A DNA stretch of 64,000 bases from a virus, in the IMG/VR virus record IMGVR_UViG_3300026097_001455, positions 16,862 through 80,861 of that record. The stretch is one strand, 5' to 3'. A program made the position numbers and the translations under genes. The stretch's first letter is position 1. Each line of letters starts with the position of its first letter. The notes beneath the pieces were generated by a model. It made no database searches. It was not told where the DNA came from and worked only from the letters and a program-made list of their open reading frames with translations. Shown piece after piece: positions 720 through 55,220 of the stretch.

Positions 720-755
720 AGTTGATTTTAAGAGTTTATTTGCTTATTTTTCCCC

Positions 756-1316
756 ATGGATACATTTATAGGTAATTGTGATAAATATATTGGACCTACC
801 TTATTAAAAATATATAATAAGGAAGGTAAACTAAAGCTGTATGTTAATAAAACTGAGCATGTAAAGATTATCTACATATATAGATATGAACAAGAAGTTA
901 CTCACATACATGCCTATACTATTCAACTGCCAGAACTTTCAAGAGATAGATTTATTAAAGACAAGAGTGGTAAGTATGTTAAAGGTAGACTTAGGCTTGG
1001 AGGTGATAAATTAAACGATAAGTACGCAACCTTTTTTGATTACACTAAGTTGATTGACAGTGTTCCACAGGAAACGGTTAGACTTTCAGAATCTAGAATG
1101 GAGCAGTGGGAGGTTGTAGGAGATATGGAAGAAATTAAAAATGAACACATATTTCTCAGTGGCAATAAATACGAAACTAGAAAGAAAGTGATTGAGGGCG
1201 ATGAGCTCACTATATATAAGACTATTTTTGAGAACGGAGAAATGAAGAACTTCCTTTTCTCAGTTCCAGAAAATAAAATTGAAGAATATTTAGATAAACT
1301 AAAACAAGAGGAATAA
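756..1316 (+). CDS. Hypothetical protein, first gene of a plus-strand operon
   Basis: A 186-residue acidic-basic mixed protein starting MDTFIGNCDKY. No signal peptide, membrane segment or recognised motif. Alternating short hydrophobic strands (for example KIIYIYRY near 38-45) suggest a beta-rich N-terminal half, and the last 20 residues form a charged helix (KIEEYLDKLKQEE). It leads a four-gene plus operon and its stop overlaps the next start by one base (TAATG), so the two are probably translationally coupled. Only 36 bases separate it from the divergent gene on the left, so its promoter must lie in or next to that gap. Function unknown. Confidence 0.75.
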   Translation: MDTFIGNCDKYIGPTLLKIYNKEGKLKLYVNKTEHVKIIYIYRYEQEVTHIHAYTIQLPELSRDRFIKDKSGKYVKGRLRLGGDKLNDKYATFFDYTKLIDSVPQETVRLSESRMEQWEVVGDMEEIKNEHIFLSGNKYETRKKVIEGDELTIYKTIFENGEMKNFLFSVPENKIEEYLDKLKQEE

Positions 1317-1633
1317 TGGAAAACGACAACAAAGTAGACATTGAGATGGCCGACATGATCGGTAAGACATATTTCAAAATAGCAACTTGGTATAACGAAG
1401 ACTTTGGTACCGAAGGAGAAAGAGCAGAAGGCCTTAAGCATGTTTGTGCAGAAGTAATACAACAAGTGCTTGAAGATACATTTATGCAAATACAAGGACT
1501 TGGCGGCACTGGAGTTAAGACAATAAAGAATGATCAGCCAGAAGATAATAGTACTCCAGGTAAAGGTGGAAGGATGTTCTCTGTAAATGAGGACGCTATT
1601 ACAAGAGCTATGAGAGAACAAAAAGAAGAATAA
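1316..1633 (+). CDS. Hypothetical small protein
   Basis: A 105-residue protein (MENDNKVDIEM) with a helical first half (residues 10-60) and a flexible Gly/Thr/Lys-rich second half. No recognised domain. The start shares one base with the stop of the gene before it and its stop is two bases before the next ATG, so it is an inner member of a tightly packed operon. The neighbouring membrane-anchored gene is the only functional hint. Function unknown. Confidence 0.75.
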   Translation: MENDNKVDIEMADMIGKTYFKIATWYNEDFGTEGERAEGLKHVCAEVIQQVLEDTFMQIQGLGGTGVKTIKNDQPEDNSTPGKGGRMFSVNEDAITRAMREQKEE

Positions 1634-1635
1634 CA

Positions 1636-2484
1636 ATGAAGATACTCAGAAATATATTAAAGTTCATTACAGACCCTAAGAATACACGCATGCTGCTTTT
1701 AGCTGGTGTTGTTGTATTGATTTTACTTTTGTTGCAGCAATGTAATGCTAAAAACGCAGCAAGAGATGAGGCTGAGAAACAAAAGCAGGAGACTCAAAGA
1801 ATAACAAACAACTATAGAGCTGCAGAAGATAGTATCGAACAGTATCAAATTGACAAAGATACGTGGGAGGCTGAAAAGAAAGGGTACCTACTTGACTATG
1901 ATGAGTTAAAATCTGATTACAGCAATCTACTTGCTGACTTCAAAGAGGAGAAAAATAAGCCGCCAAAAGTAGTTATTAGAACTGAGTACATCATTAAAGA
2001 CTCAATAAGAGATGTTCCAGTTCTGGTTGAAATTGATAGTCTGGGCAATAAAACAATGAAATTTGGAGACTCTATAAACCACGACAAATCTAACTTCATG
2101 GTATTTGACGGGAAGATACCTTATGAAATAACTTTTGATGAAATTGATTCAGTGTATAGATTAGTTCCTGGAAGTGCTTCTTTAGATTTTGAATTAGGTA
2201 TGAATCTTGATCTCGGACTATTCCAAGATGAAGATACAAAAGAAGTTTTCATTAAGGCGCAAACAAACTATCCAGGATTAAAGTTTACAACACTAGATGG
2301 AGCCTTGGTAAGAACAAGCGATGAAAATAAAAAAGCGCTAAGAGCTCTCAGAAAACCATGGGCGTTGGGATTAAACTTAGGGTATGGAGCTGTAGTTGAT
2401 GTTGGTACAGGCACGGTAAGTACTGGGCCTTATTTTGGAGTTGGGATTAGTTATAGTCCTAAGTTCTTGCAGTGGGGGAGGTAA
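1636..2484 (+). CDS. Membrane-anchored coiled-coil protein with C-terminal beta domain (spanin-like candidate)
   Basis: A 282-residue protein with a short basic N-terminus, one strong transmembrane segment at about residues 19-33 (LLLAGVVVLILLLLQ), then a long charged coiled coil to about residue 110, and a C-terminal beta-rich region ending in Gly/Tyr-rich strands (GLNLGYGAV, GPYFGVGISY). This resembles a group of Bacteroidetes phage and prophage proteins ending in GPY-x-G-V-G-I-S-Y; I am not certain of the family number. One inner-membrane anchor, a periplasmic coiled coil and a terminal beta domain would suit a single-protein spanin linking inner and outer membrane at lysis, but that is inference. 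The endolysin is encoded about 15 kb away. Phage structural or attachment roles remain possible. Confidence 0.7.
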   Translation: MKILRNILKFITDPKNTRMLLLAGVVVLILLLLQQCNAKNAARDEAEKQKQETQRITNNYRAAEDSIEQYQIDKDTWEAEKKGYLLDYDELKSDYSNLLADFKEEKNKPPKVVIRTEYIIKDSIRDVPVLVEIDSLGNKTMKFGDSINHDKSNFMVFDGKIPYEITFDEIDSVYRLVPGSASLDFELGMNLDLGLFQDEDTKEVFIKAQTNYPGLKFTTLDGALVRTSDENKKALRALRKPWALGLNLGYGAVVDVGTGTVSTGPYFGVGISYSPKFLQWGR

Positions 2485-2501
2485 ATTAGTCTTTTTTAAA
2501 C

Positions 2502-2509
2502 TATTTATA
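2502..2509 (+). promoter_or_regulatory. Late-type promoter motif TATTTATA
   Basis: CTATTTATAG lies 12 bases before the ATG at 2522, in gene-sense orientation. It is one of the best matches to the recurring CTATTTAT(A/T) element of this genome. It could give the last gene of this operon its own transcript. Confidence 0.55.
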
Positions 2510-2521
2510 GAAAATAGTAAA

Positions 2522-3160
2522 ATGGCAAAAAAAGAAGATAAAATACCAGGCGGACTAACTGATAATTGGACTGTTGAGCAAGTTGCAAAAAAACATGACG
2601 TATCTGTAGAGGATATAAAGAAACAACTTAAAAAAGGCGAAAAGGTAGAGCTTGAGCACACGAATAGCAAAGATAAGGCTAAAGAGATTGCTCTTGATCA
2701 TCTTTATGAAGACCCTAAATACTACACAAATCTAAAAGACATGGAAGATAAGGCTAAAAAAGACATGAACGAAGGAAAGGAAAGCATCACTGAATTTGCT
2801 AAAAGAATGAGAGAGCTTACTGGTCTATCGGAGAATGAAGACAAGAAAAGGCTTAAGACAATTCAAGAAGGAGAAAATACTTTTGATGGAGAATCTAAGT
2901 TCATGGCAAAAGATTTCATGAAATCAAATGATAATGTTGAGGAAGAAGATAAGAAAGTTCCTGGCGATCTTGATATAAATGGAAACCCTATTCCTGCCCC
3001 TATTAATGAGTCTGAGGACAAAACAGATGAGGAATTTGAAACTCACAAGTTTGAACAAAAGACAATAGAAGAGGGCGAGAATGATGATGAGCTTTATCAA
3101 CTAGATGAAAACACTATTATAGTTCTTGATTTCCTCGATGGTGAGGAAGAAGAGAAGTAG
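2522..3160 (+). CDS. DUF5661-type protein, acidic
   Basis: A 212-residue protein. I start it at the ATG at 2522 (MAKKEDKIPGG), not at an in-frame ATG at 2435 inside the previous gene, because the promoter motif and the end of that gene both lie between them. Residues about 8-75 (IPGGLTDNW, then ELEHT, IALDHLYEDPKYYT) match the small DUF5661 family, whose hallmark is E-H-T followed by A-x-x-I-A-x-D-H-L-x-E-x-P-x-Y-Y. The C-terminal half is very acidic and probably disordered. Followed by a strong bidirectional terminator. The role of DUF5661 is not known to me. Confidence 0.8.
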   Translation: MAKKEDKIPGGLTDNWTVEQVAKKHDVSVEDIKKQLKKGEKVELEHTNSKDKAKEIALDHLYEDPKYYTNLKDMEDKAKKDMNEGKESITEFAKRMRELTGLSENEDKKRLKTIQEGENTFDGESKFMAKDFMKSNDNVEEEDKKVPGDLDINGNPIPAPINESEDKTDEEFETHKFEQKTIEEGENDDELYQLDENTIIVLDFLDGEEEEK

Positions 3161-3215
3161 GATACCTTGGGACAAAAACGGCCCAGCCTAAAAGGACCGT
3201 TTGAGTTACAAAAAA

Positions 3216-3239
3216 AGAGGACTTATCGCTAAGTCCTCT
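3216..3239. terminator. Bidirectional rho-independent terminator
   Basis: A perfect 10-bp stem (AGAGGACTTA with TAAGTCCTCT) and a TCGC loop, with six A before it and a T-rich run after it. It lies between convergent genes ending at 3160 and 3265, so it can stop transcription from both sides. Confidence 0.9.
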
Positions 3240-3264
3240 TTTCTATTTTTAGAAAATTAATTTA

Positions 3265-3510
3265 CTAATAACTTGACGGCTGATCTCCAGGCTGTGGCTC
3301 ATGATCTTCTATTATTTCCTGACTATTTGATGGCGCCTGAGGCTTTTGCGTTTCACCTGCTTGTTCTGCTGCACCTTCTTGAGAAAGTTTGTTAAGGTAG
3401 TTAATTGCGAGATAAATGTAATGTGATTCCTCTAAAGAGTATGCTGATTTACCATGCGCAACATTAACTGCTGAGATTAGTGTGTTTATCGCTTCTGCTA
3501 CTGAATTCAT
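3265..3510 (-). CDS. Hypothetical small protein
   Basis: An 81-residue protein (MNSVAEAINTL). The first 45 residues look helical; the rest is rich in Q, P, E and S and probably disordered. No known motif. It is a single-gene unit ending at the bidirectional terminator. Its upstream gap contains an AT-rich stretch with AATAAATA in sense orientation and a palindrome (ATGAAGCTTCAT at 3539-3550), but no clear promoter match. Function unknown. Confidence 0.65.
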   Translation of the reverse strand: MNSVAEAINTLISAVNVAHGKSAYSLEESHYIYLAINYLNKLSQEGAAEQAGETQKPQAPSNSQEIIEDHEPQPGDQPSSY

Positions 3511-3573
3511 AATGTAAAATTTAATATTTATTAAATATATGAAGCTTCATCTTAAAACTAAATAGATATGATA

Positions 3574-4308
3574 TTAAAAATCTAAATTAAGAAAGCTTAA
3601 AACTTCTTTATTTTTTAAGTCTTTGTACCCACACACAAACAAGGCAAATTCTATGATCATATCAAGATACTTATCCACAGGCTTCTTATTCCCTTTTCCA
3701 TACTGCTGAACAACCTGCCTTCTGTCAACATCAATTTCTATAGTTACGTGAGGCATATTTTTACTATCCCTCAGAGATAGTATTAAAGATTTTCTGTTAT
3801 TTATCTTGTTTTTGTAATGACTACCTGCTACACAATGACCCATAACAGCACCTTCATGCTTAAGGTCTTTGGGTGTTAGTAGGTAAAGAAAGTGATTGTT
3901 ATCACTAAACTTGAACACAATTCTATCTTCTTCAACATCTGGCATGTCCATTTTTTGAATCTGGAGCTTTCTTCTCATTTCATCGTGCCAGTCAGTTTGC
4001 GCTTGATATGCGCTTTGAAAGTCGTATCTAAATATATCTGCTCTTGTTTCTGACGCCCAATCTACAATAAGCCTAAAGTCAGTGATTCTATTTATAAGCT
4101 CGTTATCCTTCTTGACTTCTTTAGAAATCCAAACATCATACTTATGCTTTCTTTTATCTGCCTTGTTCTGATCTTGATTAATACTACCTCCAACAAACCC
4201 TATAGAATCTCCTATTGAGGATATTTTCTTTACAATGTTATTAGCACTATCTTCTGGTAGATCAGAAAAGAATGAATCTTTTATGTATTGCTCTCTTTTA
4301 GTTAGCAT
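3574..4308 (-). CDS. PcfJ-like protein
   Basis: A 244-residue protein whose second half matches the PcfJ-like family named after a conjugative plasmid protein: L-x-x-E-G-x-x-M-G-H-C-V-A at about residues 152-164, then LILSLRD, PHVTIEID and a VVQQYGKGNKKP segment. Family function is unknown. The His-Cys pair (GHC) is intact here, unlike the larger paralogue at 10981-12936. The start overlaps the stop of the upstream gene by one base (TAATG). Third gene of a three-gene minus operon behind a Myb-like protein gene. The presence of two members in one phage argues for a real phage function. Confidence 0.75.
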   Translation of the reverse strand: MLTKREQYIKDSFFSDLPEDSANNIVKKISSIGDSIGFVGGSINQDQNKADKRKHKYDVWISKEVKKDNELINRITDFRLIVDWASETRADIFRYDFQSAYQAQTDWHDEMRRKLQIQKMDMPDVEEDRIVFKFSDNNHFLYLLTPKDLKHEGAVMGHCVAGSHYKNKINNRKSLILSLRDSKNMPHVTIEIDVDRRQVVQQYGKGNKKPVDKYLDMIIEFALFVCGYKDLKNKEVLSFLNLDF

Positions 4309-4565
4309 TATCCTACACTTATTCTAAGGTTGATACTCTTGTCATCGACATCACTCACTTCGAAACTTCCACCGTATTCTTTGGGGTCATCCATCTTAAG
4401 CCCATTGATCTTATGAGTTTTCTTGAAGGTGAATGTGTTGTCATCAGTTAGCTCAAAGTCTACTACGGTATAACATTTCATAAGTACTCGAAGCTTATGC
4501 TGTAGGATGGTTAGTTTCCTTCTTCTAAATGTTCTTCGTTTAATCACGAAATCCTTGTATACCAT
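4308..4565 (-). CDS. Hypothetical basic protein
   Basis: An 85-residue protein with a strongly basic N-terminal third (VIKRRTFRRRKLTILQHKLR) and a beta-like C-terminal half. The basic stretch could contact nucleic acid, but no family is recognised. It lies three bases after the Myb-like gene and is coupled by a one-base overlap to the PcfJ-like gene. Function unknown. Confidence 0.65.
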   Translation of the reverse strand: MVYKDFVIKRRTFRRRKLTILQHKLRVLMKCYTVVDFELTDDNTFTFKKTHKINGLKMDDPKEYGGSFEVSDVDDKSINLRISVG

Positions 4566-4568
4566 GGA

Positions 4569-5183
4569 TTACTTCTTTTTCTTCTTCTTTTTCTTCTTAA
4601 GACCCAGGGCGTTGATCTTCTTTTGGACTGAGCTCTCATTTCTATTGAGATTGTTAGCGCAATACTTCCTTCCCTTAGTCGGATAATGCTTCTTAAGGAA
4701 CTCTTCATCTTCATCAGACCAAGCTCCCTTGATATATCCGCCCTCTACATATTGTTTAACCTCGCTCTCAACGACTTCAAATGAAGTTGGGTCTTCTGGG
4801 TCCAGATCAATTTTAAAAGGCCCTGACGGCTTTTCTGAGGCTTCTGAAGATTTATCAACATTCTCTACTTCATGAGTTCTGGTTGTGTGAAACTTATCCA
4901 TAGTCTCATCGTTATTGGAATCAATAGTTGTGTCAATAGTATTATTGTCTGACTCCTGCTTAACAACTTCTTCACTTAATAGTGATGAGGAGTCTGATTC
5001 AAACAATTGAGCTTCCTTTGTGGTTATAAAATTTCTTTTCTTAAAAATTCTTATAGTCTTTGTCTCAAAGTCATCTGCAACTATTGAATTGCCGCCTAGA
5101 ATGGTTACTTTTTCGTCTACCCCATCCTTTCTGACAAATAGGCTAATTGGGTTGTCAGTAATGTTTTTGATCTGGATTTTCAT
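4569..5183 (-). CDS. Myb/SANT-like DNA-binding protein with poly-lysine tail
   Basis: A 204-residue protein. Residues 1-60 look like a small beta domain (MKIQIKNITDNPISL). Residues 60-130 are acidic, S/T/N-rich and likely disordered. Residues about 153-195 (W-S-D-E-D-E-x-F-L-K-K-H-Y-P, then AxNL-R-E-S-V-Q-K-K-I-x-x-L-G-L) fit a Myb/SANT or GcrA-like helix-turn-helix. The protein ends in ten lysines, encoded by mixed AAG and AAA codons. It is first in its operon, so it could be a DNA-binding regulator or DNA organiser; the exact role is inference. Confidence 0.7.
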   Translation of the reverse strand: MKIQIKNITDNPISLFVRKDGVDEKVTILGGNSIVADDFETKTIRIFKKRNFITTKEAQLFESDSSSLLSEEVVKQESDNNTIDTTIDSNNDETMDKFHTTRTHEVENVDKSSEASEKPSGPFKIDLDPEDPTSFEVVESEVKQYVEGGYIKGAWSDEDEEFLKKHYPTKGRKYCANNLNRNESSVQKKINALGLKKKKKKKKK

Positions 5184-5251
5184 CAGTATATTTTTCTATT
5201 TTTAGAAACATAAGAAACTACGGGTAAAAAATAAAATATTTGTCTAAAAAA

Positions 5252-13834: not shown

Positions 13835-14386
13835 ATGGCGAACAATAGAGGGCGAAATAGAGGTCGAAAAAGAGATAGAGGACCTAAGCATAAAATAAAC
13901 GATAAGATCAGATACCCAGAAGTAAGAGTTGTTGAAGGTATTGATACTGGAATTTACGATACCTCTGAGGCTCTAAGAGAAGCTGAAGACCTTGGCTTGG
14001 ACCTTGTTCTAATAACTGAGAATGCTAAACCACCAGTTTGCAAGGTGATTGATTACAAAAAATTCTTGTATGAAGAAAAGAAAAAGCAGAAAGAGCAAGA
14101 AAAAAATCAAATCAAAGTTGTTGTAAAAGAAGTTAGATTGTCTCCAAACATAGGAGATCATGATTTTGATGTGGTTAAGAAAAGGGCTCACGGCTTCCTA
14201 GAAGATGGGAATAAGGTAAAGGTGACTTTAAGATTTAAAGGCAGAAACATTGTTTTTAAAGAAAGAGGTGAAGAGGTAATGCTTAGATTTGCAGACGAGC
14301 TTAGCGAAGTAGGCGTTCCAGAGTCTATGCCTAAACTACAGAACAGGCAAATGATCTTTACAATAAAGCCAAAAAAGAAAAAATGA
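13835..14386 (+). CDS. infC: Translation initiation factor IF-3
   Basis: A 183-residue, full-length IF-3 (E. coli IF-3 has 180). The N-terminal domain starts INDKIRYPEVRVV (residues 21-33). The linker carries the hallmark PPVCKVIDYKKFLYEEKKKQK (residues 66-86). The C-terminal domain has KEVRLSPNIGDHD (98-110), FLEDGNKVKVTLRFKGR (121-137) and MPKLQNRQM (165-173). In bacteria IF-3 binds the 30S subunit, blocks premature 50S joining, checks the start codon and helps recycling. It uses ATG, not the AUU start used for autoregulation in E. coli. It overlaps the next gene by four bases. A phage copy could shift start-site choice or reinitiation toward phage messages, which lack Shine-Dalgarno sites. 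Confidence 0.95.
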   Translation: MANNRGRNRGRKRDRGPKHKINDKIRYPEVRVVEGIDTGIYDTSEALREAEDLGLDLVLITENAKPPVCKVIDYKKFLYEEKKKQKEQEKNQIKVVVKEVRLSPNIGDHDFDVVKKRAHGFLEDGNKVKVTLRFKGRNIVFKERGEEVMLRFADELSEVGVPESMPKLQNRQMIFTIKPKKKK

Positions 14387-25685: not shown

Positions 25686-26345
25686 TTATACATCATTTTT
25701 TGGAGCATAATACTTCCCACGAATTTTAACACCCTCTTTTATGAAGCCATCTTTGGATTTATAGTTTTGTTTTGATAGGAGAACCATGCCTTTGGTTTTT
25801 ATCTCTATTTCTTCTAGCTTTTTATTTGACTCCTTAAGTATTTTATCCGCCTTTTCCTTGAGGCTATGTAAACTAATAGATGTGTGAGATTTTCTTTTCC
25901 ATTCTTCAACTAATATTTCATCACCTAGTATAAAAAGATGGAATAGATTAATTCCTCTACTTATTCTAAACACCGTCTTATCATTGTAGATGCCCTCATG
26001 TCTTATCCCCTTCTCATCTGGATTTTCCCAGTCTACCATGAATCTTGATTCGATAGCTTCTTTAATATCTTCTTTTCTTTCCTCTTTTTTCTGATCAGAC
26101 TCAAGCCTTCTGAGTTTGGACTTAATTCTATTCTGTGCCTCCTGCTTAAGTTTTTCTTGCTTAAGCTTAGCCTCTCTTTCGCCTTGCCTCTCATTCTTTT
26201 GCTTAGACTCCTTGATGGCTTTCATGGCCTCTCTAGCCAGTTCATCAATAGACTTTTCTGGCTGCTCTGAATCCCTGATCTCTCTAGCTAGATCATCAAT
26301 GGTCTTTTGAGACTCTGAATCTTTTTTATTTCCTTCCTCTGCCAT
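25686..26345 (-). CDS. Coiled-coil protein next to the Mre11-Rad50 fusion
   Basis: A 219-residue protein. Residues 15-115 are a highly charged helix with two copies of I-D-(D/E)-L-A-R-E near residues 16-22 and 33-39. Residues 115-215 look folded, with beta strands (KTVFRISRGINLFHLFILGD, KIRGKYYAP). The start shares one base with the stop of the fusion gene, so it is translationally coupled and may act with it. Function unknown. Confidence 0.65.
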   Translation of the reverse strand: MAEEGNKKDSESQKTIDDLAREIRDSEQPEKSIDELAREAMKAIKESKQKNERQGEREAKLKQEKLKQEAQNRIKSKLRRLESDQKKEERKEDIKEAIESRFMVDWENPDEKGIRHEGIYNDKTVFRISRGINLFHLFILGDEILVEEWKRKSHTSISLHSLKEKADKILKESNKKLEEIEIKTKGMVLLSKQNYKSKDGFIKEGVKIRGKYYAPKNDV

Positions 26346-29300
26346 TATGTTATTGTAATCTTAGAAATACCCGCTTTAGGGTTGTTTTCAACGACTTCTG
26401 GCTCTAATCCATCTGTTACCTTGGTAACCTCTATGATGTTGTCCGAGAAGTCCTTTATTTCGTTCCTGTGCGTAATTATAAGCACGTTCTTATACTTATT
26501 TCTTAAATAGTTCAAAATATTGACTACACCCATGGTAAGTTCATCATCAAGTGTCCCGAAACCTTCGTCTATAATTCTAACAGTAGGCTTTGTAAGTCGG
26601 CTCATATACCTCAGCGCCTCTGTAATTACGATTGAAGCTATAAACTTTTGTGAGCCAGATGCAGATGTCAATGGAAGCGTGTCTCCTTTGTCATCGCTAA
26701 AATAGAATGTCTCAACAATATCTCCGTTCTGCTGTATGTCAAGATCAATTTTAAAGTCAACTACCTCTTGAAGTATTGAGTTAATTTTTGAATTAATAAT
26801 AGGAAGCTTTCTTCTTATAATAGAAGCTGGTATTCCATCTCTATGTACAGCTTGTAAATAAATAGAGTATTTCTTATACAGCCTTTCAGAATTGTTTATC
26901 TGACTAAGTTTGTCATCATAGTTTTCTCTATTATTCTCAAGAACTTTAAGCTCACCATAGCACTTGTTTATGTTCTTATCCAGGTTAAACACTGTAAGCT
27001 TGTAAGACTTGTACACCCTAGTCTTTTCATCTACCTGTTCTTGAATCTCTTTGTTTCTCTTTATCTTCCCGATGTTCTCATCAAACTTGCTTATCTTAGC
27101 CTCAAGGTCAGATATTAACTTCTCATTAGCACTAACCTCTTTGTTCTTGGTAGAGAGTTTTTTGCTATTGATGTCAACCTCATTGTTATGATCAATAATG
27201 TCTTGAGAGTTTTCTATGAGGTTGATCTTATCTTTAAGAATCTTAAGTGACTCACGCTTCACTGATATAGATTCTTCAGCTATATCAAGCTGGTTTTTCT
27301 CGTTGTCTACAGTAGTGTTGTGCGCTATAATAGCATCATTCTCCTTAATTCTTCTTTCCTTGTAATCAACAAGTCCTTGCTTCATTTCAATCTCTTCTAA
27401 GCATTCCACCTCCTTTTCTGGGTCTGGCTTATGTTCTACATGTCCGCATGTTGGGCAGCACTTGCCTTGATATGTTGGTAGCTTGGCGTTTAAGTTGGTT
27501 ATTTCTCCTTTAAGCTCTTTTATCTGATCTTCGAAATTAGATACTTCAAGCTCTGAATTCTTAGGGTTGGTGTTAAGCCAGTCTTTCTTTGTTCTAATTT
27601 TATTCTCAAGACCATTAACTGTTTTTTGCTGTTCTGATAATTGAGATTTAAGCGAACTTATACTAACGCCCTTATCAAAAGGAAGTTCCTTCTTAAAGTT
27701 TTTGTCAAGCCATTTTTCAAGATTTCCAATAACTACCTTGTCACTTTCAATAGATTCTTTGATGGACTCTATTTTCTTAACTGCGGCATCTCTGTCTGTA
27801 ATTCCAGGGTCTTCAACTTTGTCAATTTTCTTATTAAGCTCAATGATCTCATCGTTTGTATCATTCTGCTTTATGAGCATCATGTCTTTCTCTTCCTCAA
27901 AAGACTTTAGCTCCTCTTTCTTTTCTTTGATTTCAGAGTCGATTTCTTTGATCTTATTCTCAATCTCTATAGCATTACCAAGGTCTTTCTGCTTACGCTT
28001 AACATCATTAAAAAAAGTCTTTCCATACTCATGCCTATCCTTGTATGGCTCAAGACCAAGAAATCTACTTATAAGAGCATTTTTTGGCTGCTGCTGTTGA
28101 TTAATGTAATCACCTTTTCCACCCTGAGCCTGGAGCGATGTCTTAGTGAAGTCATCAAACGTACCGATTGCATCAAGCACAATTGACTTAACTTCTTTTT
28201 TCTCCATTGTCTTTTTATCAGAAATCTCTGGAGACCACTTCTCTCCGACAACGTTTCCGTCATCATCATACTCCTTAGCAAGTTTGTCATACTTTATTCC
28301 AAAGCTATTTTTACCTTTCTTAGTAGTTATCTTCCTGTATATTCTATACTTTTCACCATTAATAGTTAGAAAAATTTTCACATAACCCGTATCCGAATCT
28401 GTATAAATATTTACAAGGTATTTTGAAGTGCTTCGATTTCCACCAAGCATTTCTTCATATAACCCCCATACAATAGCTTTGATCACATTTGACTTACCAT
28501 TAAAGTTCTTTCCAAATATTCCAGTAAGTCCCCCAACCTTATCAAAATCTATTTTTAAAGGCTTTTTGTCAAATGAAAGTATGTTACTTATTTCTATTGA
28601 GTTAAGGTCCCAGTCACTCATATGTCTTGATGAGGATTCATTGATTTCAAGAGTTTCGTCTACATGTCTTGCAAACTCCATAAGCTCCTTCATGAGATCA
28701 TCATCAACCTCAAAATCTCCATCTTCTATCCACTCCTTGAAAAGGTCTTCAAAAACTTGTTCCTGCTCTTCATCTTCTTGGAGTTCTGCAACATCCCTTA
28801 TTATTTCGACAAACTCAACACGAACACTTTCGCATCCATATTTATCACGCACAAGTCTCTTAATCTGATTTTCCTTCTCAATAGAGTAGTTCTCTTCATA
28901 ATCTTCCCAAGTGATATATACCTTTGTTTTTCTCTTGTTATTACTAAACTTAACGTATTCAATCCTTTCGTCAACATCCTCGCCTTTTGCGATGTCTATT
29001 TTAGCAAACCCATAATCATTTAGAACAAACTTTCTCTCGTGAGTACAGTTATCTAAATCCCACAGAAGGTATCCTTTATCAATAGATTCTCCAAAGTTCT
29101 GCTGAATTAAAGAGCCTGCATAAGCTACTGTATCATCATCTCTGAATGTCTGGTATTCATGAATATCTCCAAGCATAACAACATCAAAATTGTTAAAGGT
29201 GCTTAGTCTCATTAGGTTATCACCCTGCATTTGGTATCCATTATCTCCTCTAGCTCCGTAAACAGTGCCATGATACATTGCTACATACTTTTTTCCTGGC

Positions 29301-29788
29301 TCCTTTTTTTCTAAAGTTAGAATTTCATTATCCTTGCAAGAATAAACTCCGTAAACGAGATTGTCACTGATTTCATAGAATCCTGAATCTGGATAATAAT
29401 ATACAGCTTTCTTACTAAAGTCTATACTATCCTTGTTTTCGTTTGTAACAACCACAGCCTTTCTGTTACCTGAATCTTCCAGTAAGTTTGCTAGATTGAA
29501 TATTGGGGATATTGCGTCACCCTGCTCAAGCTGTTGAAGATTGAGATCATGATTGCCTAAAATAACATCTGTTGGGGCTATGTCAGAAAGTTTAATGAAT
29601 AGCTCTGCTAATAAGCTAAAAGAATTTGGTGACATATTAATCTTGTGGTGAACAAGGTCTCCTGCTAAATAGATTCTATCTGGCTTTTGTTTTTTAAGGT
29701 CTTCATAAAGTCTTTCAAATACTTGTCTGTATTCATCATGCCTTGTTCCAAACCTAATCTGTATATCTGCTAAGTGGGCTATTTTCAT
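26345..29788 (-). CDS. Fused Mre11/SbcD nuclease and Rad50/SbcC ATPase (T4 gp47-gp46 equivalent)
   Basis: A single 1147-residue protein. Residues 1-350 are a metallophosphoesterase: M-K-I-A-H-L-A-D-I-Q, Y-L-A-G-D-L, L-G-N-H-D-L, M-Y-H-G-T and L-G-D-I-H-E. From about residue 395 the Rad50/SbcC part begins: Walker A G-K-N-F-N-G-K-S (about 423), a long coiled coil, zinc hook C-P-T-C-G-H (about 774), signature motif S-A-S-G-S-Q-K, Walker B R-I-I-D-E-G-F-G (about 1070) and the I-T-H-R switch. The third residue after Asp of the first phosphoesterase motif is Gln, not His. The complex resects DNA ends for recombination-dependent replication. In T4 and bacteria these are two proteins. It overlaps the primase gene by four bases. 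Confidence 0.93.
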   Translation of the reverse strand: MKIAHLADIQIRFGTRHDEYRQVFERLYEDLKKQKPDRIYLAGDLVHHKINMSPNSFSLLAELFIKLSDIAPTDVILGNHDLNLQQLEQGDAISPIFNLANLLEDSGNRKAVVVTNENKDSIDFSKKAVYYYPDSGFYEISDNLVYGVYSCKDNEILTLEKKEPGKKYVAMYHGTVYGARGDNGYQMQGDNLMRLSTFNNFDVVMLGDIHEYQTFRDDDTVAYAGSLIQQNFGESIDKGYLLWDLDNCTHERKFVLNDYGFAKIDIAKGEDVDERIEYVKFSNNKRKTKVYITWEDYEENYSIEKENQIKRLVRDKYGCESVRVEFVEIIRDVAELQEDEEQEQVFEDLFKEWIEDGDFEVDDDLMKELMEFARHVDETLEINESSSRHMSDWDLNSIEISNILSFDKKPLKIDFDKVGGLTGIFGKNFNGKSNVIKAIVWGLYEEMLGGNRSTSKYLVNIYTDSDTGYVKIFLTINGEKYRIYRKITTKKGKNSFGIKYDKLAKEYDDDGNVVGEKWSPEISDKKTMEKKEVKSIVLDAIGTFDDFTKTSLQAQGGKGDYINQQQQPKNALISRFLGLEPYKDRHEYGKTFFNDVKRKQKDLGNAIEIENKIKEIDSEIKEKKEELKSFEEEKDMMLIKQNDTNDEIIELNKKIDKVEDPGITDRDAAVKKIESIKESIESDKVVIGNLEKWLDKNFKKELPFDKGVSISSLKSQLSEQQKTVNGLENKIRTKKDWLNTNPKNSELEVSNFEDQIKELKGEITNLNAKLPTYQGKCCPTCGHVEHKPDPEKEVECLEEIEMKQGLVDYKERRIKENDAIIAHNTTVDNEKNQLDIAEESISVKRESLKILKDKINLIENSQDIIDHNNEVDINSKKLSTKNKEVSANEKLISDLEAKISKFDENIGKIKRNKEIQEQVDEKTRVYKSYKLTVFNLDKNINKCYGELKVLENNRENYDDKLSQINNSERLYKKYSIYLQAVHRDGIPASIIRRKLPIINSKINSILQEVVDFKIDLDIQQNGDIVETFYFSDDKGDTLPLTSASGSQKFIASIVITEALRYMSRLTKPTVRIIDEGFGTLDDELTMGVVNILNYLRNKYKNVLIITHRNEIKDFSDNIIEVTKVTDGLEPEVVENNPKAGISKITIT

Positions 29789-49262: not shown

Positions 49263-51158
49263 TTATATTGCAGAGGATGTGTTAGGAGTTCCTGCTGCTG
49301 TTCTTATCAAAATATCCTGTTCTGGAAATCTAACTTCAAACATAGAAGTTGGTGTTCCTTGTATTGCATTGTCTATATATGCAAAACGAGTTCTAAAAGA
49401 CCCAGTGTTTGGATTTTGAGTTCTCTCAAAAGTTGCCTGAGAGTGTCTAGTGTTTGAATAGCTTCCGCCTTCCATGTTGTATATCCTAATATCTACAACA
49501 TTTATAATGCCTGGAATATCTCTGAGCATATCAGTTATATGAGAAACGTAAATATTTTGATTCATTTGCCATTTTTCAACATCAAAGAAATCTCTAATTT
49601 CACTTATAGCTCTTGACTTAACTTCGCTAACATTAAAAGTCTTATCAACAAAAAGATCGACTTCAAGCTGAAGGTTTACAACTTTCCCATCATTTATTTC
49701 AACATAGTCATTTATCATTCTAAATGGAACCATATATCTCTGAATGTTCTGCTTTATTATACTTGTAGATACATCAAGAAGTTTTCCTCCACCATCTCTA
49801 GTCAAAACGTACATCTTGACTTTGTTATCCTCTACTTTGCCAAATATCCTAAATGGTGCTCCAAATTTTCCTGGCATCTGAAATGCCCTAGCAACATAAT
49901 CATCTAGCGTAACAGCTCTTTGTTGAGATGCGAAATTAGCTGCTATATAACTCTTAATTTCTTCAACACTTGGAAGCCCGACCCCACCAATAGCAGGTAT
50001 TGGGTTATTTGCTCTAGTTGAGGAAAGCACAGACTGAACAAGATCGGCATTAGACCCTAACGATAAACTTCTAATATTAGAAACTTCATTAAGGGTGTTT
50101 GCACCCACATTACTAAGAGGTCCTCCACCCGCTCTATATCGTATAAAGATAGTTGAATTAGATGGCACTTGTACACCCAAGGCTGTATTGTTGAGTATCT
50201 CTGAAACATCAAGATTATTTGAGTCGGGGCACTTAGTGGTATTTGTAAGACTGCTAATGTACGCTTCATAAGCATCATAATCCTTAGTTCCTCCACCAAA
50301 AGTGAGTCTGCATGTGCCGTCAGATAAGAACTCCTTTTCAAATCTTTGTTCAACTTCTACATATCTTCCAGTTTTAACTCCGTTAACATCGTTTACAGTA
50401 TCATCATCAAGAAATATTTTATCAGTAGGAAGTGAGTCTACTTCATAATACTTGTTGTCAAAATCATTGAATTCTGCAAAACTTGGAGTCCTTTGTATTC
50501 CAAGGCCATTTAATATAATTACATCAGTAACTTCAAGAACATTTTTATCTGGAAGCTCTACTTGATAAAATGGCTTAGCTTGATTTGCTGGAATTTCGAC
50601 TTTAAAAAGTTTGGTTACCCCAGCTTTAATCTTTTCTCTCTTAATTATTCTGTACCTAACAAGGTCTTGATTACCGTTAAGTATTGGCTCGATAGTTCTA
50701 TTAGCAATCCCATCAGCACTAAAGTCGCTTGCAAAATTTACTTCTTCAGTAGTTTCAAAGGTTTGTCCAGCGCCTCTAATCCTCATGCCTGGTCTATACA
50801 AGGGTAGGTAAGAAGAATCTGGGCCATCTGCTGTAGGTGGCACTTCTATAACAATATCAGCAACTGTTACTGCTGGCCTAACGCCAGGTGGGTTGTATCC
50901 AAATGTCTTAGCAAGTCTATAAACTGACTTTCTTTCTTTAACACCGTCAAGAAACAGCTCGTTGTACTTCTTATCTGTGGCATATGATAATAGATCACCC
51001 ACATAAGCATTAAGTTCAAGCAATGCCATCCCAGGAGACGCTACGTTGAAGTCTTGCCATTGCTCTGGAAAGAATGTCTTCAAATAATTGATTAGATCGC
51101 CTCTAATAGAGGTAAAGTCTCTGCTTAAGTAGTTTACTGTAACTGTTTTTTGCGCCAT
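49263..51158 (-). CDS. Baseplate wedge protein, T4 gp6-like (Baseplate J family)
   Basis: A 631-residue protein. N-terminus V-N-Y-L-S-R-D-F-T-S-I-R-G-D-L and A-S-P-G-M-A-L-L-E-L-N-A-Y-V-G-D-L-L-S-Y (residues 8-60) is the classic start of gp6/baseplate J proteins. C-terminal half has the P-S-V-E-E-I-K-S-Y-I segment and A-V-T-L-D-D-Y-V-A-R-A, also typical. In T4 gp6 forms the ring of the baseplate inner wedge with gp25 and gp53. It follows the gp25-like gene by ten bases, the usual order gp25 then gp6. Confidence 0.9.
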   Translation of the reverse strand: MAQKTVTVNYLSRDFTSIRGDLINYLKTFFPEQWQDFNVASPGMALLELNAYVGDLLSYATDKKYNELFLDGVKERKSVYRLAKTFGYNPPGVRPAVTVADIVIEVPPTADGPDSSYLPLYRPGMRIRGAGQTFETTEEVNFASDFSADGIANRTIEPILNGNQDLVRYRIIKREKIKAGVTKLFKVEIPANQAKPFYQVELPDKNVLEVTDVIILNGLGIQRTPSFAEFNDFDNKYYEVDSLPTDKIFLDDDTVNDVNGVKTGRYVEVEQRFEKEFLSDGTCRLTFGGGTKDYDAYEAYISSLTNTTKCPDSNNLDVSEILNNTALGVQVPSNSTIFIRYRAGGGPLSNVGANTLNEVSNIRSLSLGSNADLVQSVLSSTRANNPIPAIGGVGLPSVEEIKSYIAANFASQQRAVTLDDYVARAFQMPGKFGAPFRIFGKVEDNKVKMYVLTRDGGGKLLDVSTSIIKQNIQRYMVPFRMINDYVEINDGKVVNLQLEVDLFVDKTFNVSEVKSRAISEIRDFFDVEKWQMNQNIYVSHITDMLRDIPGIINVVDIRIYNMEGGSYSNTRHSQATFERTQNPNTGSFRTRFAYIDNAIQGTPTSMFEVRFPEQDILIRTAAGTPNTSSAI

Positions 51159-51168
51159 CTTTTAAATA

Positions 51169-51582
51169 TTAAAAATAAGTATGATCGTCTCCGCCTACTT
51201 CTCCAGGCTCGACAGGAACAACTACGCTAACAGTGTCTTGGAGTCCTCCTAGTTCAAGTATTCTGTAGGCTATTTTAACTTCTAATAAGTTTTGTTGCTC
51301 GGTAAATGTGAATATAATCTCATCAATATCAACCTGAGGTATGTATTCGCCAATCTTTTCTATGAGTTCTTCTCTAAGCCTAGTCTCAGAAATATCATCC
51401 CAAGGTTCAAATATATAGTCCCATAGCGGAGAATATAGATTATTACGCATAACTCTATTTCTTCTCTTTGTAGTTAAAAGAGAGATTAAGTCTGTTTGTA
51501 TCGCCTCTACTGTTGTATTGTTAGAGAAAAACACACCACCCTCTGTGGTCTCCTTAAATGGGAATTTAATACTAATCGGCAT
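51169..51582 (-). CDS. Baseplate wedge protein, T4 gp25-like (GPW family)
   Basis: A 137-residue protein of normal gp25 length. It contains I-Q-T-D-L-I-S-L-L-T-T-K-(R)-x-R-x-x (residues 28-42), Y-S-P-L-W-D-Y-I-F-E-P (49-59) and L-R-E-E-L-I-E-K-I-G-E-Y-I-P (68-81), all typical. gp25 binds the sheath initiator end of the wedge. It leads the gp25-gp6 operon with a late-type promoter, back to back with a plus-strand promoter. Confidence 0.9.
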   Translation of the reverse strand: MPISIKFPFKETTEGGVFFSNNTTVEAIQTDLISLLTTKRRNRVMRNNLYSPLWDYIFEPWDDISETRLREELIEKIGEYIPQVDIDEIIFTFTEQQNLLEVKIAYRILELGGLQDTVSVVVPVEPGEVGGDDHTYF

Positions 51583-51681: not shown

Positions 51682-53439
51682 ATGGGAGTTTTTAGAGTAT
51701 ATCCAAGGAAGAGCAATACAATAGCAAGCGGAGTTTATCAAATATACAACTCTGGACAAAATGCTGTTACCGATCTTTGGTACGGTGGTGGCGGAACTGA
51801 TACTGCACTTGCAAGGAGAAATTCTGTCAGTAGATTTATTGTTGACTTTGATCTTACAGAACTTATTCAAAAACTTTCTGAGAAAGAAATAAATGGTGAT
51901 CTTGTAAGCTCATACAGACTTAAGATGACAAATGCAATACCAGGAGATAAAATATTAGAACCTGAATACGAATTTGATAAACTTGACAAAAGAGTTGCTG
52001 CATCATTTGATCTCATAACATTCCCTGTAAACAAGGAATGGGACGAAGGTAGAGGGTACGACATGTTCCAAGAAAATTACCTTGTAAAACAGAGAGGCAA
52101 TCCAATAATCACTGGATATTCTAATTGGAACTTTGCAAAGCAAACAGTAGCTTGGGATGTTCCAGGTGTCTATTTCGACCCAACTGGCTCAACGTTTTCT
52201 GGCTCTGTAGTGCAAAGTGGAATTACTTTTGAGACTGCATCTATAAATACTGGACTTAACTCTGCTACTAATTTTGGATTTATAACTTCAGCAGCCACAA
52301 CAGCAGCTACAACAGCTATTTCCGCAACTACAATAGGAAATGATGTATTTGTTTCATACAACCCTCTAAGCGGTGTTGTATCTACAGAAGACTGGTATAA
52401 TTCAATAATAGCAACTTCTTTCAGCGGATTTGGTATTACTGCTTCTGGTTTTAGTGCAACAACATTTATAGGTACAGGTACTGATGCATTCTATTTATCT
52501 GCAAACACAGCTGTAGATAATATAAACTTCTATTCAACACAGCATTTTGATATTGGTAATGAAAATATAGATATGGATATTACTGATATTGTAAATGACT
52601 GGCTAAGTGGTGGTAGTGAAAATTATGGATTAGGAGTTGCCTATAGAAGGGATTATGAGCTTATGAGTACTGATACAAGGTATGTAGCTTCGTTCTATAC
52701 AGAAAAGACAAACTCTTCATTCAAACCTTATATTGAAGTTGTTTACGATCAATCTTTTCAAGATGATAGGCTTCAGGTTTCAAACAATAGGGTGTCTAGA
52801 TTATTTCTATACACATTTAGCGGAAACGATGCTGTTAATTACTCCTCAGCAAGTACGGTTGATATTAGAACAATGAATGGAGTAAATGTTTACACTGGGC
52901 TTACTCCTACTCAACTTGAGAAAGGAGTTTACTACGTGGATGTTAATATGAGTGGCGCAACTCGTGGAGAGCAATATAAAGATGTATGGAAGGGTGTTAC
53001 GTTTGTACCTGGAGTAGATCAACAAGACATAGAGCAGGTGTTTACAATAAGAGATAATTACTACACAAGTAACGTCCCTGAAGTAAATGATTATTCAATT
53101 ACTACATACGGAATTGGTAATAACTCTATACTTTCTCTTAACGAGACTCATAAAGTGTTTGTGGACCTCAGGGTTAACTATAGCAGTAGAAATCAACCTA
53201 AGACGGCTTACGATCTAAAATACAGGATAGTAATGAACTCTCAAGAAGAAGTGGTTCCATGGACATCGGTAAACCAAGCTGTGATCAATAGGTGTAAAAC
53301 AAATTACATGACACTTGAGACTGGGTGGTTATTACACAACCAAAGTTATCAAATACAGTTTAGGGTAGATGAGTTCGGAACCAAGAGAGTGCTTCCAGAA
53401 ACAGTTAACTTTAAAGTGCTAAGGTCTAATGACTTTTAA
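51682..53439 (+). CDS. Tail-associated protein with DNRLRE/carbohydrate-binding-like domain
   Basis: A 585-residue protein. Early residues (TIASGVYQIYNSGQNAVTDLWYGGG, RFIVDFDLTELI) and a later segment (MDITDIVNDWLSG, YGLGVAYRR, SSFKPYIEVVYD, about 298-355) follow the pattern of DNRLRE-type beta domains, in which D-I-T-x-x-V-x-x-W precedes a F-x-P-x-I-x-V-x-Y strand. Such domains bind surfaces or sugars. A single plus gene between baseplate operons, with its end overlapping the PncC gene by 14 bases. Likely a decoration, spike-associated or fibre protein. Confidence 0.65.
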   Translation: MGVFRVYPRKSNTIASGVYQIYNSGQNAVTDLWYGGGGTDTALARRNSVSRFIVDFDLTELIQKLSEKEINGDLVSSYRLKMTNAIPGDKILEPEYEFDKLDKRVAASFDLITFPVNKEWDEGRGYDMFQENYLVKQRGNPIITGYSNWNFAKQTVAWDVPGVYFDPTGSTFSGSVVQSGITFETASINTGLNSATNFGFITSAATTAATTAISATTIGNDVFVSYNPLSGVVSTEDWYNSIIATSFSGFGITASGFSATTFIGTGTDAFYLSANTAVDNINFYSTQHFDIGNENIDMDITDIVNDWLSGGSENYGLGVAYRRDYELMSTDTRYVASFYTEKTNSSFKPYIEVVYDQSFQDDRLQVSNNRVSRLFLYTFSGNDAVNYSSASTVDIRTMNGVNVYTGLTPTQLEKGVYYVDVNMSGATRGEQYKDVWKGVTFVPGVDQQDIEQVFTIRDNYYTSNVPEVNDYSITTYGIGNNSILSLNETHKVFVDLRVNYSSRNQPKTAYDLKYRIVMNSQEEVVPWTSVNQAVINRCKTNYMTLETGWLLHNQSYQIQFRVDEFGTKRVLPETVNFKVLRSNDF

Positions 53440-53902
53440 AATGCTCTTCTAGCATTTCAAGACCTCTCATTGTTGCTAAGTATATATTTCTACCTCTTCC
53501 TTCTTCAAGGTCAAGTCTTTCTACAAAAGTTCCTTCTGGAGTTGATATTGCGACATAAACTGTTCCTGGAGGATTAGCTTCTGTACCATAACCAGTAGTA
53601 TCTGCATATCCAGTTGTTGCTATCGAGTAATCGGTTCCCATGAGAACTTTAACTTTTTCTGCCATATCACATGCAACTTGATCACTTACCTCTGTGTAAG
53701 TATCAATAAGATTCTTATCAACTCCAAGTATGTTTATCTTAGCCTTATTACTATAGACCACCGCAGAGCCTTCGAAATAATTTGAACTTCCTGGTATTGA
53801 CGTTAGCAGTCCGCTAATGTATCCTGCTGTGCAGCTTTCTGCTGTAGAAATCTTTCCACCTCTTTCTTCTAGTGCAAATTTAATTGAGTTAATTATGCTC
53901 AT
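53426..53902 (-). CDS. pncC: Nicotinamide-nucleotide amidohydrolase (PncC/CinA C-terminal family)
   Basis: A 158-residue stand-alone CinA C-terminal domain, the normal PncC length. Hallmarks: S-T-A-E-S-C-T-A-G (residues 19-27, with the likely catalytic Ser at 23), S-I-P-G-S-S-N-Y-F-E-G (35-45), Y-S-N-K-A-K (50-55), L-G-V, and N-P-P-G-T-V-Y-V-A-I. The enzyme deamidates NMN to nicotinate mononucleotide and ammonia, feeding NAD regeneration. The usual G-x-A-G-P-x-G loop is altered to G-Y-A-D-T-T-G. It lies among tail genes, where such an enzyme is out of place. It could support NAD supply or counter NAD-depleting defences; that is inference. Confidence 0.9.
   Translation of the reverse strand: MSIINSIKFALEERGGKISTAESCTAGYISGLLTSIPGSSNYFEGSAVVYSNKAKINILGVDKNLIDTYTEVSDQVACDMAEKVKVLMGTDYSIATTGYADTTGYGTEANPPGTVYVAISTPEGTFVERLDLEEGRGRNIYLATMRGLEMLEEHFKSH
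53439..53457. other. Hairpin at convergent gene ends
   Basis: AAATGCT and AGCATTT form a 7-bp stem with a five-base loop across the overlap of two convergent genes. Short A/T runs flank it, so it may act as a weak bidirectional terminator. Confidence 0.45.
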
Positions 53903-53910
53903 ATTGTCTT

Positions 53911-54147
53911 TTAATTATAACCATTATCTTTAAGGTCTTTGCCAGTTGGAAAACCCATTATGTGTCCACAAAAAACGCAGATTTTTCTTAATTTAGAAGC
54001 TCCAATTCCATTAATATCCTTGACTTTATAATCGCTGTGTGAACAAGTATCTCTCAATTCCATTAATTTGTTTTCTTTTTCTTCGATCTCCTTTTTTAAT
54101 TCTTCTGCTTCTTTTTTAATTTCTTCATTTCTGTCGAAATTACTCAT
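53911..54147 (-). CDS. Small coiled-coil zinc-binding protein
   Basis: A 78-residue protein. Residues 7-33 are a Glu/Lys coiled coil; the second half has C-S-H (residues 35-37) and C-V-F-C-G-H (57-62), a probable zinc site of C-x-H...C-x-x-C type. No named family. It lies eight bases before the PncC gene in the same direction and may share its transcript. A DNA-binding or adaptor role is possible. Confidence 0.6.
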   Translation of the reverse strand: MSNFDRNEEIKKEAEELKKEIEEKENKLMELRDTCSHSDYKVKDINGIGASKLRKICVFCGHIMGFPTGKDLKDNGYN

Positions 54148-54233
54148 CGGTAGTTGTTTGGTTAGACTTAATAAGACATGACATCTTCTTTGTCTATTAC
54201 AAATATATTCAAAAATTGCTATACAGCAATGTT

Positions 54234-55220
54234 TTAATTAATTCTTATGTGATTAGATATAAGTCTTTGCAGCTCACCGTCTATTGTATAAGCTGATAAT
54301 TCTTCAGATTCTGGTATTGTAACCAGCGGTTTATGAGGTGTGTGTATGTGATTTAGCATAACTTTAACAATTAAATCAAGGAGTTTGATTAATTCATCGC
54401 CAAATACCGCTGGGTGAAGTGCACTAGCTACGCCCTCAAATGATTCTAGGTCATCATTAATTTCGAATTGAGCGATTCCTTCATCACGGAAAGTTCCTCT
54501 TGGTGAAAACAGGTTGATGTTTGTTGATGTCAAATTTGCTTGAGAGTAGTTTGGTATTAGATCAGCATTTTCTTCGTTATCATTTTCTTGTTGTATTAAC
54601 TGAAATTGAGATGGGTATTCTGTGTTTATATTTGTTGTGCCTTTTATAAGTTTTCCAGCAGTAAGAAAAACCTCTCTGTTTTTTAGCATAACATCAGAAT
54701 CATTTCTACCCTGAATCGCTATGTCTCCAATCTTGGGATACACATCCTCTGTACTAAGTTTAGCATCCTTCTGGGCATTAAGGTTAAACTCAGTATCTTT
54801 AAAAACTCTATGAGCCTCATCAAATGATTGAAATTTTAATTTAAAAGGCGTGTTAATTTGAGAGCCCATATAATATCTGGGCGCTGAGTTATCAGATGGG
54901 TTTTCAAGAAATAAGTAAACCATTTCATCAACAAAAGGAACTATGTGAAAATGATTAGGAAACATAGGCACGCAAAGAGGTAAGTCTTCATCTGGAGTAT
55001 CTCTATCTCTACCTCCACCTTTGTTTATAACTCCTTCTTCCCCAAGATTATTAGGGTCAATTATACGAGCTACAACTCTTTTCATACCAAGAGGGTCTTC
55101 GTTGCTTATCACAATTGCAGGATATATATTTCTTGAGGTTTGGTTTCCTTCAGAAGCTATTCCCCCACCCTGACCTTGGCCTTGCAGTGTCGCTTTTGCT
55201 AATCTATCTATTCCAGGCAT
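54234..55220 (-). CDS. Baseplate hub/spike protein with gp5-like OB fold
   Basis: A 328-residue protein. Residues about 30-120 fit the OB domain of T4 gp5/VgrG proteins: I-Y-P-A-I-V-I-S-N-E-D-P-L-G-M-x-R-V-x-A-R-I-I-D, then L-P-L-C-V-P-M-F-P, P-F-V-D-E-M-V-Y-L-F and P-R-Y-Y-M-G-S. No lysozyme domain is present, unlike T4 gp5. A His-rich element (LNHIHTPHKP) near residue 293 occurs in tail-tip proteins. It probably forms the central hub or spike base. Confidence 0.7.
   Translation of the reverse strand: MPGIDRLAKATLQGQGQGGGIASEGNQTSRNIYPAIVISNEDPLGMKRVVARIIDPNNLGEEGVINKGGGRDRDTPDEDLPLCVPMFPNHFHIVPFVDEMVYLFLENPSDNSAPRYYMGSQINTPFKLKFQSFDEAHRVFKDTEFNLNAQKDAKLSTEDVYPKIGDIAIQGRNDSDVMLKNREVFLTAGKLIKGTTNINTEYPSQFQLIQQENDNEENADLIPNYSQANLTSTNINLFSPRGTFRDEGIAQFEINDDLESFEGVASALHPAVFGDELIKLLDLIVKVMLNHIHTPHKPLVTIPESEELSAYTIDGELQRLISNHIRIN

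Follow-up and report, generated by a model that had tools for sequence, protein, structure and literature searches.

The 64,000-nucleotide window analysed here covers positions 16862-80861 of an 80,861-base virus record (labelled G000), and a window position equals the contig position minus 16861. The gene of interest, pncC, lies on the minus strand at the end of a baseplate block, and its surroundings in window coordinates are as follows.

49263..51158, minus strand: baseplate wedge protein (gp6/J-type; phrog_219, E=4.8e-22)
51169..51582, minus strand: baseplate wedge protein (gp25-type; phrog_261, E=1.6e-12; phrog_43, E=3.6e-12)
51682..53439, plus strand: convergent baseplate-block gene, 585 aa, no good database match
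53426..53902, minus strand: pncC, predicted stand-alone NMN deamidase of the CinA-C/PncC family, 158 aa, ATG start (from profiles, residues and an AlphaFold2 model)
53911..54147, minus strand: protein of 78 aa whose two Cys pairs suggest a zinc ribbon by eye, no Pfam match
54148..54233, minus strand: intergenic gap before the pair formed by the 78-aa gene and pncC, AT-rich, holding TATATTTG
54234..55220, minus strand: conserved structural-block protein, 328 aa, no database match, bordering the pncC slot on its upstream side in every relative

The pncC product matches the Pfam CinA family PF02464 over residues 5-153 with 153.5 bits (E=4.4e-45; cut-off 23.5) and the NCBIfam PncC domain TIGR00199 with 116.9 bits (cut-off 68.9), and residues Ser23 and Lys55 are present, which bears out the catalytic Ser motif and CinA hallmarks claimed in the first-pass annotation. 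The protein lacks the COG1058/MocF domain and thus represents the stand-alone form. Its AlphaFold2 model, made from 48 sequences, has a pLDDT of 96.3 and a TM score of about 0.9 against solved CinA/PncC structures. The nearest solved relatives by sequence are the T. thermophilus and A. tumefaciens CinA proteins; the top Foldseek matches to the model are enterobacterial CinA-superfamily entries, among them 5kol (E. coli ECK1530), which by its label appears to be YdeJ. No PDB relatives were found for the neighbouring proteins of no assigned function.

The baseplate setting that the first-pass annotation had assigned to pncC stands, with the two wedge proteins at 51169-51582 and 49263-51158 matching PHROG baseplate-wedge families; the larger of the two is 56% identical to its counterpart in the related contig G018 and 81% identical to that in G049. 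In six related contigs pncC, at 63-100% identity, occupies the equivalent slot between the 328-aa gene (with or without the 78-aa gene) and the convergent gene. The 3' ends of the convergent gene and pncC overlap by 14 bases, and the 78-aa gene lies 8 bases upstream of pncC; it is present in loci L126-L128 and in G018 and is missing from L004 and L129, where pncC stays. Where synonymous sites are unsaturated, pairwise dN/dS for pncC is about 0.13-0.2, which indicates that the gene is under purifying selection. Because orthologues share the slot in six other contigs and because of this selection, the pncC open reading frame is far beyond chance occurrence.

A position at the end of the baseplate block, kept in seven contigs, raises the question of whether PncC is itself part of the virion, produced late together with the baseplate, carried in or on the tail and delivered with the DNA, or playing a structural part. 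There are precedents: NARP2 protein has been detected in KVP40-like phage particles (PMC12028318), and dihydrofolate reductase has been noted among the baseplate proteins of phages (PMC11097641). The contig G018 points the other way. Every relative has the convergent gene beside the slot. This holds for G018 too, which shares the tail block and has both slot neighbours and a homologue of the 78-aa gene, yet there an unrelated open reading frame replaces pncC, and no PncC was found anywhere in the 106 kb of this contig. A structural protein would be present wherever the tail block is shared, and G018 has the block without PncC, which argues against a tail-structural role. The catalytic residues of PncC are, moreover, all retained, and no structural gene was recognised beside pncC in the unrelated contigs G053, G056 and G059. 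We consider a virion role quite improbable. Since G018 combines the tail block with an unrelated gene in the slot, the slot looks like a cargo position and pncC does not look like a baseplate part. The G018 slot gene itself (L113 9701-10189, minus strand) encodes 128-162 aa depending on start choice and has no Pfam match.

The motif TATATTTG at 54200-54207 (minus strand), which resembles the Bacteroidota -7 element, lies shortly before the 78-aa gene and pncC, and is seen upstream in L004 and L127 as well. It occurs at 11 sites in the window against 4.9 expected, the full Bacteroidota pattern TTTG-N-TAnnTTTG is not enriched in the window, and scans for promoters and terminators did not rise clearly above shuffled sequence; the motif is thus weak evidence for a candidate promoter. 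Rfam and tRNA scans were empty. Elsewhere in the window there is a complete gene for translation initiation factor IF-3 (13835-14386, plus strand; TIGR00168, 182 bits, both IF3 domains), found also in G003 (56% identity) and G018 (52%), and an 1147-aa open reading frame (26345-29788, minus strand) that by eye looks like a fusion of an SbcD/gp47-type nuclease with an SbcC/gp46-type ATPase.

The residues that distinguish active NMN deamidases from inactive paralogues have been described (PMC5384747, PMC3855486), as have the roles of individual AtCinA residues, including the catalytic dyad S31/K63 (PMC5384747). In the alignment, the dyad corresponds to S23 and K55 of phage PncC, and AtCinA G46, S48, Y58, R145, T105 and G106 correspond to G38, S40, Y50, R136, T97 and G98, with Tyr50 and Arg136 predicted to take part in phosphate/nicotinyl binding. 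Sixteen of the 18 conserved positions that were checked are retained (E22, S23, C24, T25, G27, G38, S40, Y50, N52, K55, M80, T97, G98, A100, G113 and R136). The two changed positions lie in the ribose loop, where AtCinA G109 and P110 have become D101 and T102, while A108 is kept as A100. The altered G-Y-A-D-T-T-G loop singled out in the first-pass annotation is therefore real: phage residues 97-106 read TGYADTTGYG in place of the usual TG(I/V)AGPxGG, with AGP changed to ADT and the loop one residue longer than the cellular form, and TGYAD is invariant across the phage clade (five distinct sequences). In block P-IV, phage PncC has TEVS rather than G(A/V)VS.

These changes could mean that the NMN activity of PncC is lost, as in E. 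coli YdeJ, or altered, and that the enzyme acts on a related nucleotide. The TGY of the phage TGYAD is common to the inactive YdeJ lineage (TGYGGP, PMC3855486), the AGP of active enzymes and the G(A/V)VS block are absent, and the Foldseek top matches, with 5kol as the apparent YdeJ, lean in the same direction. However, none of the changes that mark YdeJ (loss of GxS, Tyr58 to Phe, Asn60 to Asp, loss of Arg145) is seen in the phage protein; aligned YdeJ lacks G46/S48, Y58, N60 and R145, all of which phage PncC keeps. The phage sequence is also nearer to Bacteroidota CinA (46% identity), Shinella PncC (39%) and active YgaD (34%) than to YdeJ (26%), the gene is under purifying selection, and the NAD genes described below offer it a fitting pathway. 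The A-G-P ribose loop, which phage PncC lacks, is conserved in the family and is not itself demonstrated as required. Contacts at the G109/P110 positions are made to the ribose through the backbone, or are structural (PMC5384747), so the ADT change does not exclude NMN activity. A YdeJ-like loss of function therefore strikes us as improbable. Because the catalytic and phosphate-binding residues are kept where YdeJ has lost them, phage PncC is likely to be an NMN deamidase, with the loop leaving some doubt.

The 16.9 kb to the left of the window (L002) hold a cluster of NAD genes, listed here in contig coordinates with the GIY-YIG-like gene given by its L002 position.

577-1500, minus strand: NadE (TIGR00552, 167 bits)
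1445-2095, minus strand: NadD (TIGR00482, 160 bits)
2043-2768, minus strand: NUDIX hydrolase, ADP-ribose type (YffH/AdpP family; TIGR00052, 99 bits)
2755-3207 (L002), minus strand: hotdog (YciA-like) thioesterase, within the NAD cluster
L002 3180-3893, minus strand: GIY-YIG-like homing endonuclease, by eye
3966-5186, minus strand: PncB (TIGR01514, 411 bits)

NadE, NadD, PncB and the NUDIX hydrolase all score above the curated cut-offs with signature motifs intact, and form one cluster (contig 577-5186) outside the window, about 65 kb from pncC and in a different gene block. All four enzymes of the module, PncC, PncB, NadD and NadE, are thus encoded in one phage record, and on paper the predicted routes NMN to NaMN to NaAD to NAD+ and nicotinate to NaMN to NaAD to NAD+ are both complete. 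Genes beyond the window accordingly lend strong support to the idea of NAD salvage put forward for pncC. The companion genes proposed with it were found in part: there is an adenylyltransferase, of the NadD type (TIGR00482), but no NadV was seen in the 80.9-kb record, whose phosphoribosyltransferase is of the PncB type (TIGR01514), and no Adps/Namat was recognised by eye among the record's open reading frames. A search of the record and of 12 relatives turned up no NAD-dependent DNA ligase, and the suggestion that NMN is recycled from a phage ligase is not supported, with the host ligase being a possible source instead. No PncA was found in the 80.9-kb record either, so that a nicotinamide branch would depend on host PncA.

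Other genes in or near the cluster are of separate interest. The thioesterase gene is inside the NAD cluster of G000, G003 and G018 (L002 2755-3207, minus strand; L114 7191-7601, plus strand). The GIY-YIG-like gene stands between pncB and the thioesterase gene in both G000 and G003 (L023 7283-7993, plus strand), the two copies being 81% identical. A CCA tRNA nucleotidyltransferase-like protein is encoded near the cluster (L002 6007-7416, plus strand), no tRNA gene was found in the 80.9-kb record, and a thymidylate synthase is also encoded in the record.

The linkage of pncC with the NAD cluster was examined by comparing 83 open reading frames of the record, each of at least 90 aa, with three other contigs. 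Over its first 34 kb, G000 is collinear with the 142-kb contig G003; this part takes in the NAD cluster, which is arranged alike in both (PncB, GIY-YIG, thioesterase, NUDIX, NadD, NadE), and the stretch from 35 to 80.8 kb is collinear with the 101-kb contig G049, including pncC (63% identity). The end of G003 and the start of G049 nearly coincide on the map, so that the genes of one lie outside the reach of the other. G018, a more distant contig, runs across the junction and carries the tail block and the NAD cluster (PncB, thioesterase, NadD, NadE) on one contig. The NAD cluster was seen without a detected PncC in G018 and in G003, which ends before the tail block; within the clade only G000 has pncC and the NAD cluster on the same contig, the other members being fragments. 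Because both parts of the record are collinear with other phage contigs and G018 crosses the junction, a chimera or bacterial contamination was rejected as unlikely on this gene-order comparison. A terminase search with PF03237 gave no match in 13 records, and phage identity was for this reason taken from PHROG matches to baseplate, sheath, terminase and replication proteins. The G000 clade consists of large phages with T4-type baseplates, and a Bacteroidota host is likely for them.

In the explanation we prefer, to which we assign a probability of roughly 0.72, PncC is an NMN deamidase carried as cargo at the 3' end of a baseplate operon and feeding a phage-encoded deamidated route to NAD+, with upkeep of NAD+ as the likely benefit. 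PncC would convert NMN and water to NaMN and ammonia, and PncB would make NaMN from nicotinate; NadD would then adenylate NaMN to NaAD, and NadE would amidate NaAD to NAD+. The NMN could come from the host NAD-dependent DNA ligase or from NAD pyrophosphatases, and the nicotinate from nicotinamide via host PncA. Judged from its family, the NUDIX hydrolase could convert ADP-ribose to AMP and ribose 5-phosphate. This explanation draws on the gene identities, the intact active-site residues, the linkage in one record, the conservation of the slot, the purifying selection and the co-occurrence of pncC with NAD genes; from these we infer catalytic activity, flux, timing, host and benefit. The sequence PncC-NadD-NadE is an established bacterial route (PMC4246079).

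The benefit would lie in keeping up NAD+ while NAD-consuming defences, the demands of replication, or both deplete it. Nicotinamide and ADP-ribose are the products of NADase defences, and it is plausible that the PncC route counters NAD-depleting defences. A rival explanation invokes the same enzymology for another benefit: the module would be mainly anabolic, with PncC clearing and recycling the NMN that the host ligase generates while phage DNA is being made in large amounts, and PncB, NadD and NadE raising NAD+ for a large genome. NAD-dependent ligase releases NMN and is inhibited by it (PMC4246079), marine phages (cyanophages and pelagiphages, for instance) commonly carry NadE alone, and the thymidylate synthase and CCA-type nucleotidyltransferase of the record fit a general metabolic support. 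PADLOC, furthermore, returned weak matches only, and no known defence or anti-defence gene was recognised beside pncC. On the other side, neither the record nor the 12 relatives encode an NAD-dependent ligase, although the host has its own, and the partners of PncC in unrelated phages include PncA-like, NadV-type, Prs-like and macro/DarG-type proteins, which fit nicotinamide and ADP-ribose from NADase or ADP-ribosylating defences better than they fit NMN from ligase. We regard a mainly anabolic role as possible, clearly short of even odds.

The recurrence of pncC among phages was assessed with IMG/VR scans using broad alignments, which returned 193-195 PncC relatives, the best 80 being kept each time. 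Among the 82 loci examined from these best 80 per scan, 70 lay within 1.5 kb of a contig end and nine lay at least 4.9 kb from both ends. The end-proximal loci, which show the pattern expected of host cinA beside prophages, were left uncounted, and INPHARED matches were not used, as they mostly resemble bacterial contigs deposited as phage. Four of the nine internal loci belong to the studied clade, and the other five represent three lineages; in all five the record also has NadE and/or PncB, which lends further support to NAD salvage. G053 and G054 encode PncC with NadE, PncB and NadD, and the G053 cluster adds PncA-like, Prs-like, NUDIX and macro-domain proteins, with PncC about 15 kb away. 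G059 encodes PncA-like, Prs-like, NadV-type, NadE and PncC proteins, and there NMN made by NadV reaches NadE only if it is deamidated and adenylated. G056 has PncC and NadE, and G057 (57 kb, with the same pncC as G056) has PncC, PncB and a DarG-type macro domain. A terminase is encoded in G053, and a tail sheath, a baseplate wedge and a DNA polymerase in G056. Co-occurrence of pncC with NAD genes in unrelated phages is suggestive and not statistical proof, since it comes from five contigs, a small number, and since phages commonly encode NadE.

Some genes of these phages deserve mention in their own right. The DarG-type macro domain beside PncB in G057 (L297 10357-10806, minus strand) scores 192 bits, below the full-length cut-off, and might possibly counter DNA ADP-ribosylation. 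In G056, pncC is flanked by protein kinase-like and Thg1 (tRNAHis guanylyltransferase) genes (L293 5148-8403, minus strand). G053 encodes an RtcB-like RNA ligase, recognised by eye, and a TROVE/VWA Ro60-like protein with a weak Pfam match (L290 2073-3284, plus strand; L291 8761-10377, plus strand).

In a tree whose cellular rows were chosen by similarity to the phage PncC query, the phage clade is monophyletic (100/99) and placed among Bacteroidota CinA proteins, with weak deep branching. Identity between phage PncC and the cellular members found is at most about 47%. A broader reading, which we put forward tentatively and at a little under even odds, is that these phages possess a third NAD+-rebuilding pathway, running through NaMN and NaAD to NadE in at least four large-phage lineages that are unrelated to each other and restoring NAD+ after NAD-depleting defences, with PncC as the entry point for NMN. 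As parts of the same proposal, PncC would bridge NadV to NadE where both are present, and the PncC arm of the studied clade might be expressed late or enter the cell with the virion. NAD+-rebuilding phages blunt a large class of bacterial defences. If a complete deamidated route is indeed encoded, phages would have matched the metabolism of hosts whose own NAD+ synthesis passes through NaMN and NaAD, and sets of PncC, PncA, PncB, NadD and NadE, now annotated as scattered single auxiliary metabolic genes, would be worth looking for.

The phage protein shares family and fold with bacterial PncC/CinA-C (E. coli YgaD, A. tumefaciens CinA 2A9S, T. thermophilus CinA 4UOC). YgaD and AtCinA are stand-alone like phage PncC, and the catalytic Ser/Lys, Tyr and Arg are shared; unlike the bacterial proteins, the phage copy sits in a baseplate block, has ADT and one extra residue in its loop, and forms its own clade. 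PncC of the marine megaphage Mar_Mega_1 has been reported as an auxiliary metabolic gene (PMC9723777), and its sequence did not appear among the phage matches of this analysis; a fixed slot and PncB-NadD-NadE partners are found here, and in the part of that description considered no such partners are mentioned. NadE or PncB of cyanophages, pelagiphages, Atu_ph07 and Phosso represents single steps of the same pathway, whereas the full set with PncC is a feature of the present phage that is not demonstrated for those records. In the literature searched, of which coverage was partial, we found no description of PncC together with PncB-NadD-NadE in a phage. Phage PncC and the NARP1 and NARP2 pathways are already known, and it is this combination that appears to be new.

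Phages use NARP1 and NARP2 to restore NAD+ under attack by NADase defences (PMC13232231, PMC11984713). NARP1 (Adps and Namat) is a two-enzyme phage path restoring NAD+ after NADase defence; it rebuilds NAD+ from ADP-ribose and nicotinamide via ADPR-PP, a step we do not propose here. The NARP2/KVP40 salvage (NadV and NMN adenylyltransferase) resembles the present system as a multi-enzyme phage rebuilding of NAD+, and the likeness extends to Prs-like and NUDIX partners, which recur in the relatives. The NARP2 route runs from nicotinamide through NMN to NAD+ and is of the amidated kind. In contrast, this phage, in whose record no NadV was seen, would take a route through NaMN and NaAD that ends with NadE.
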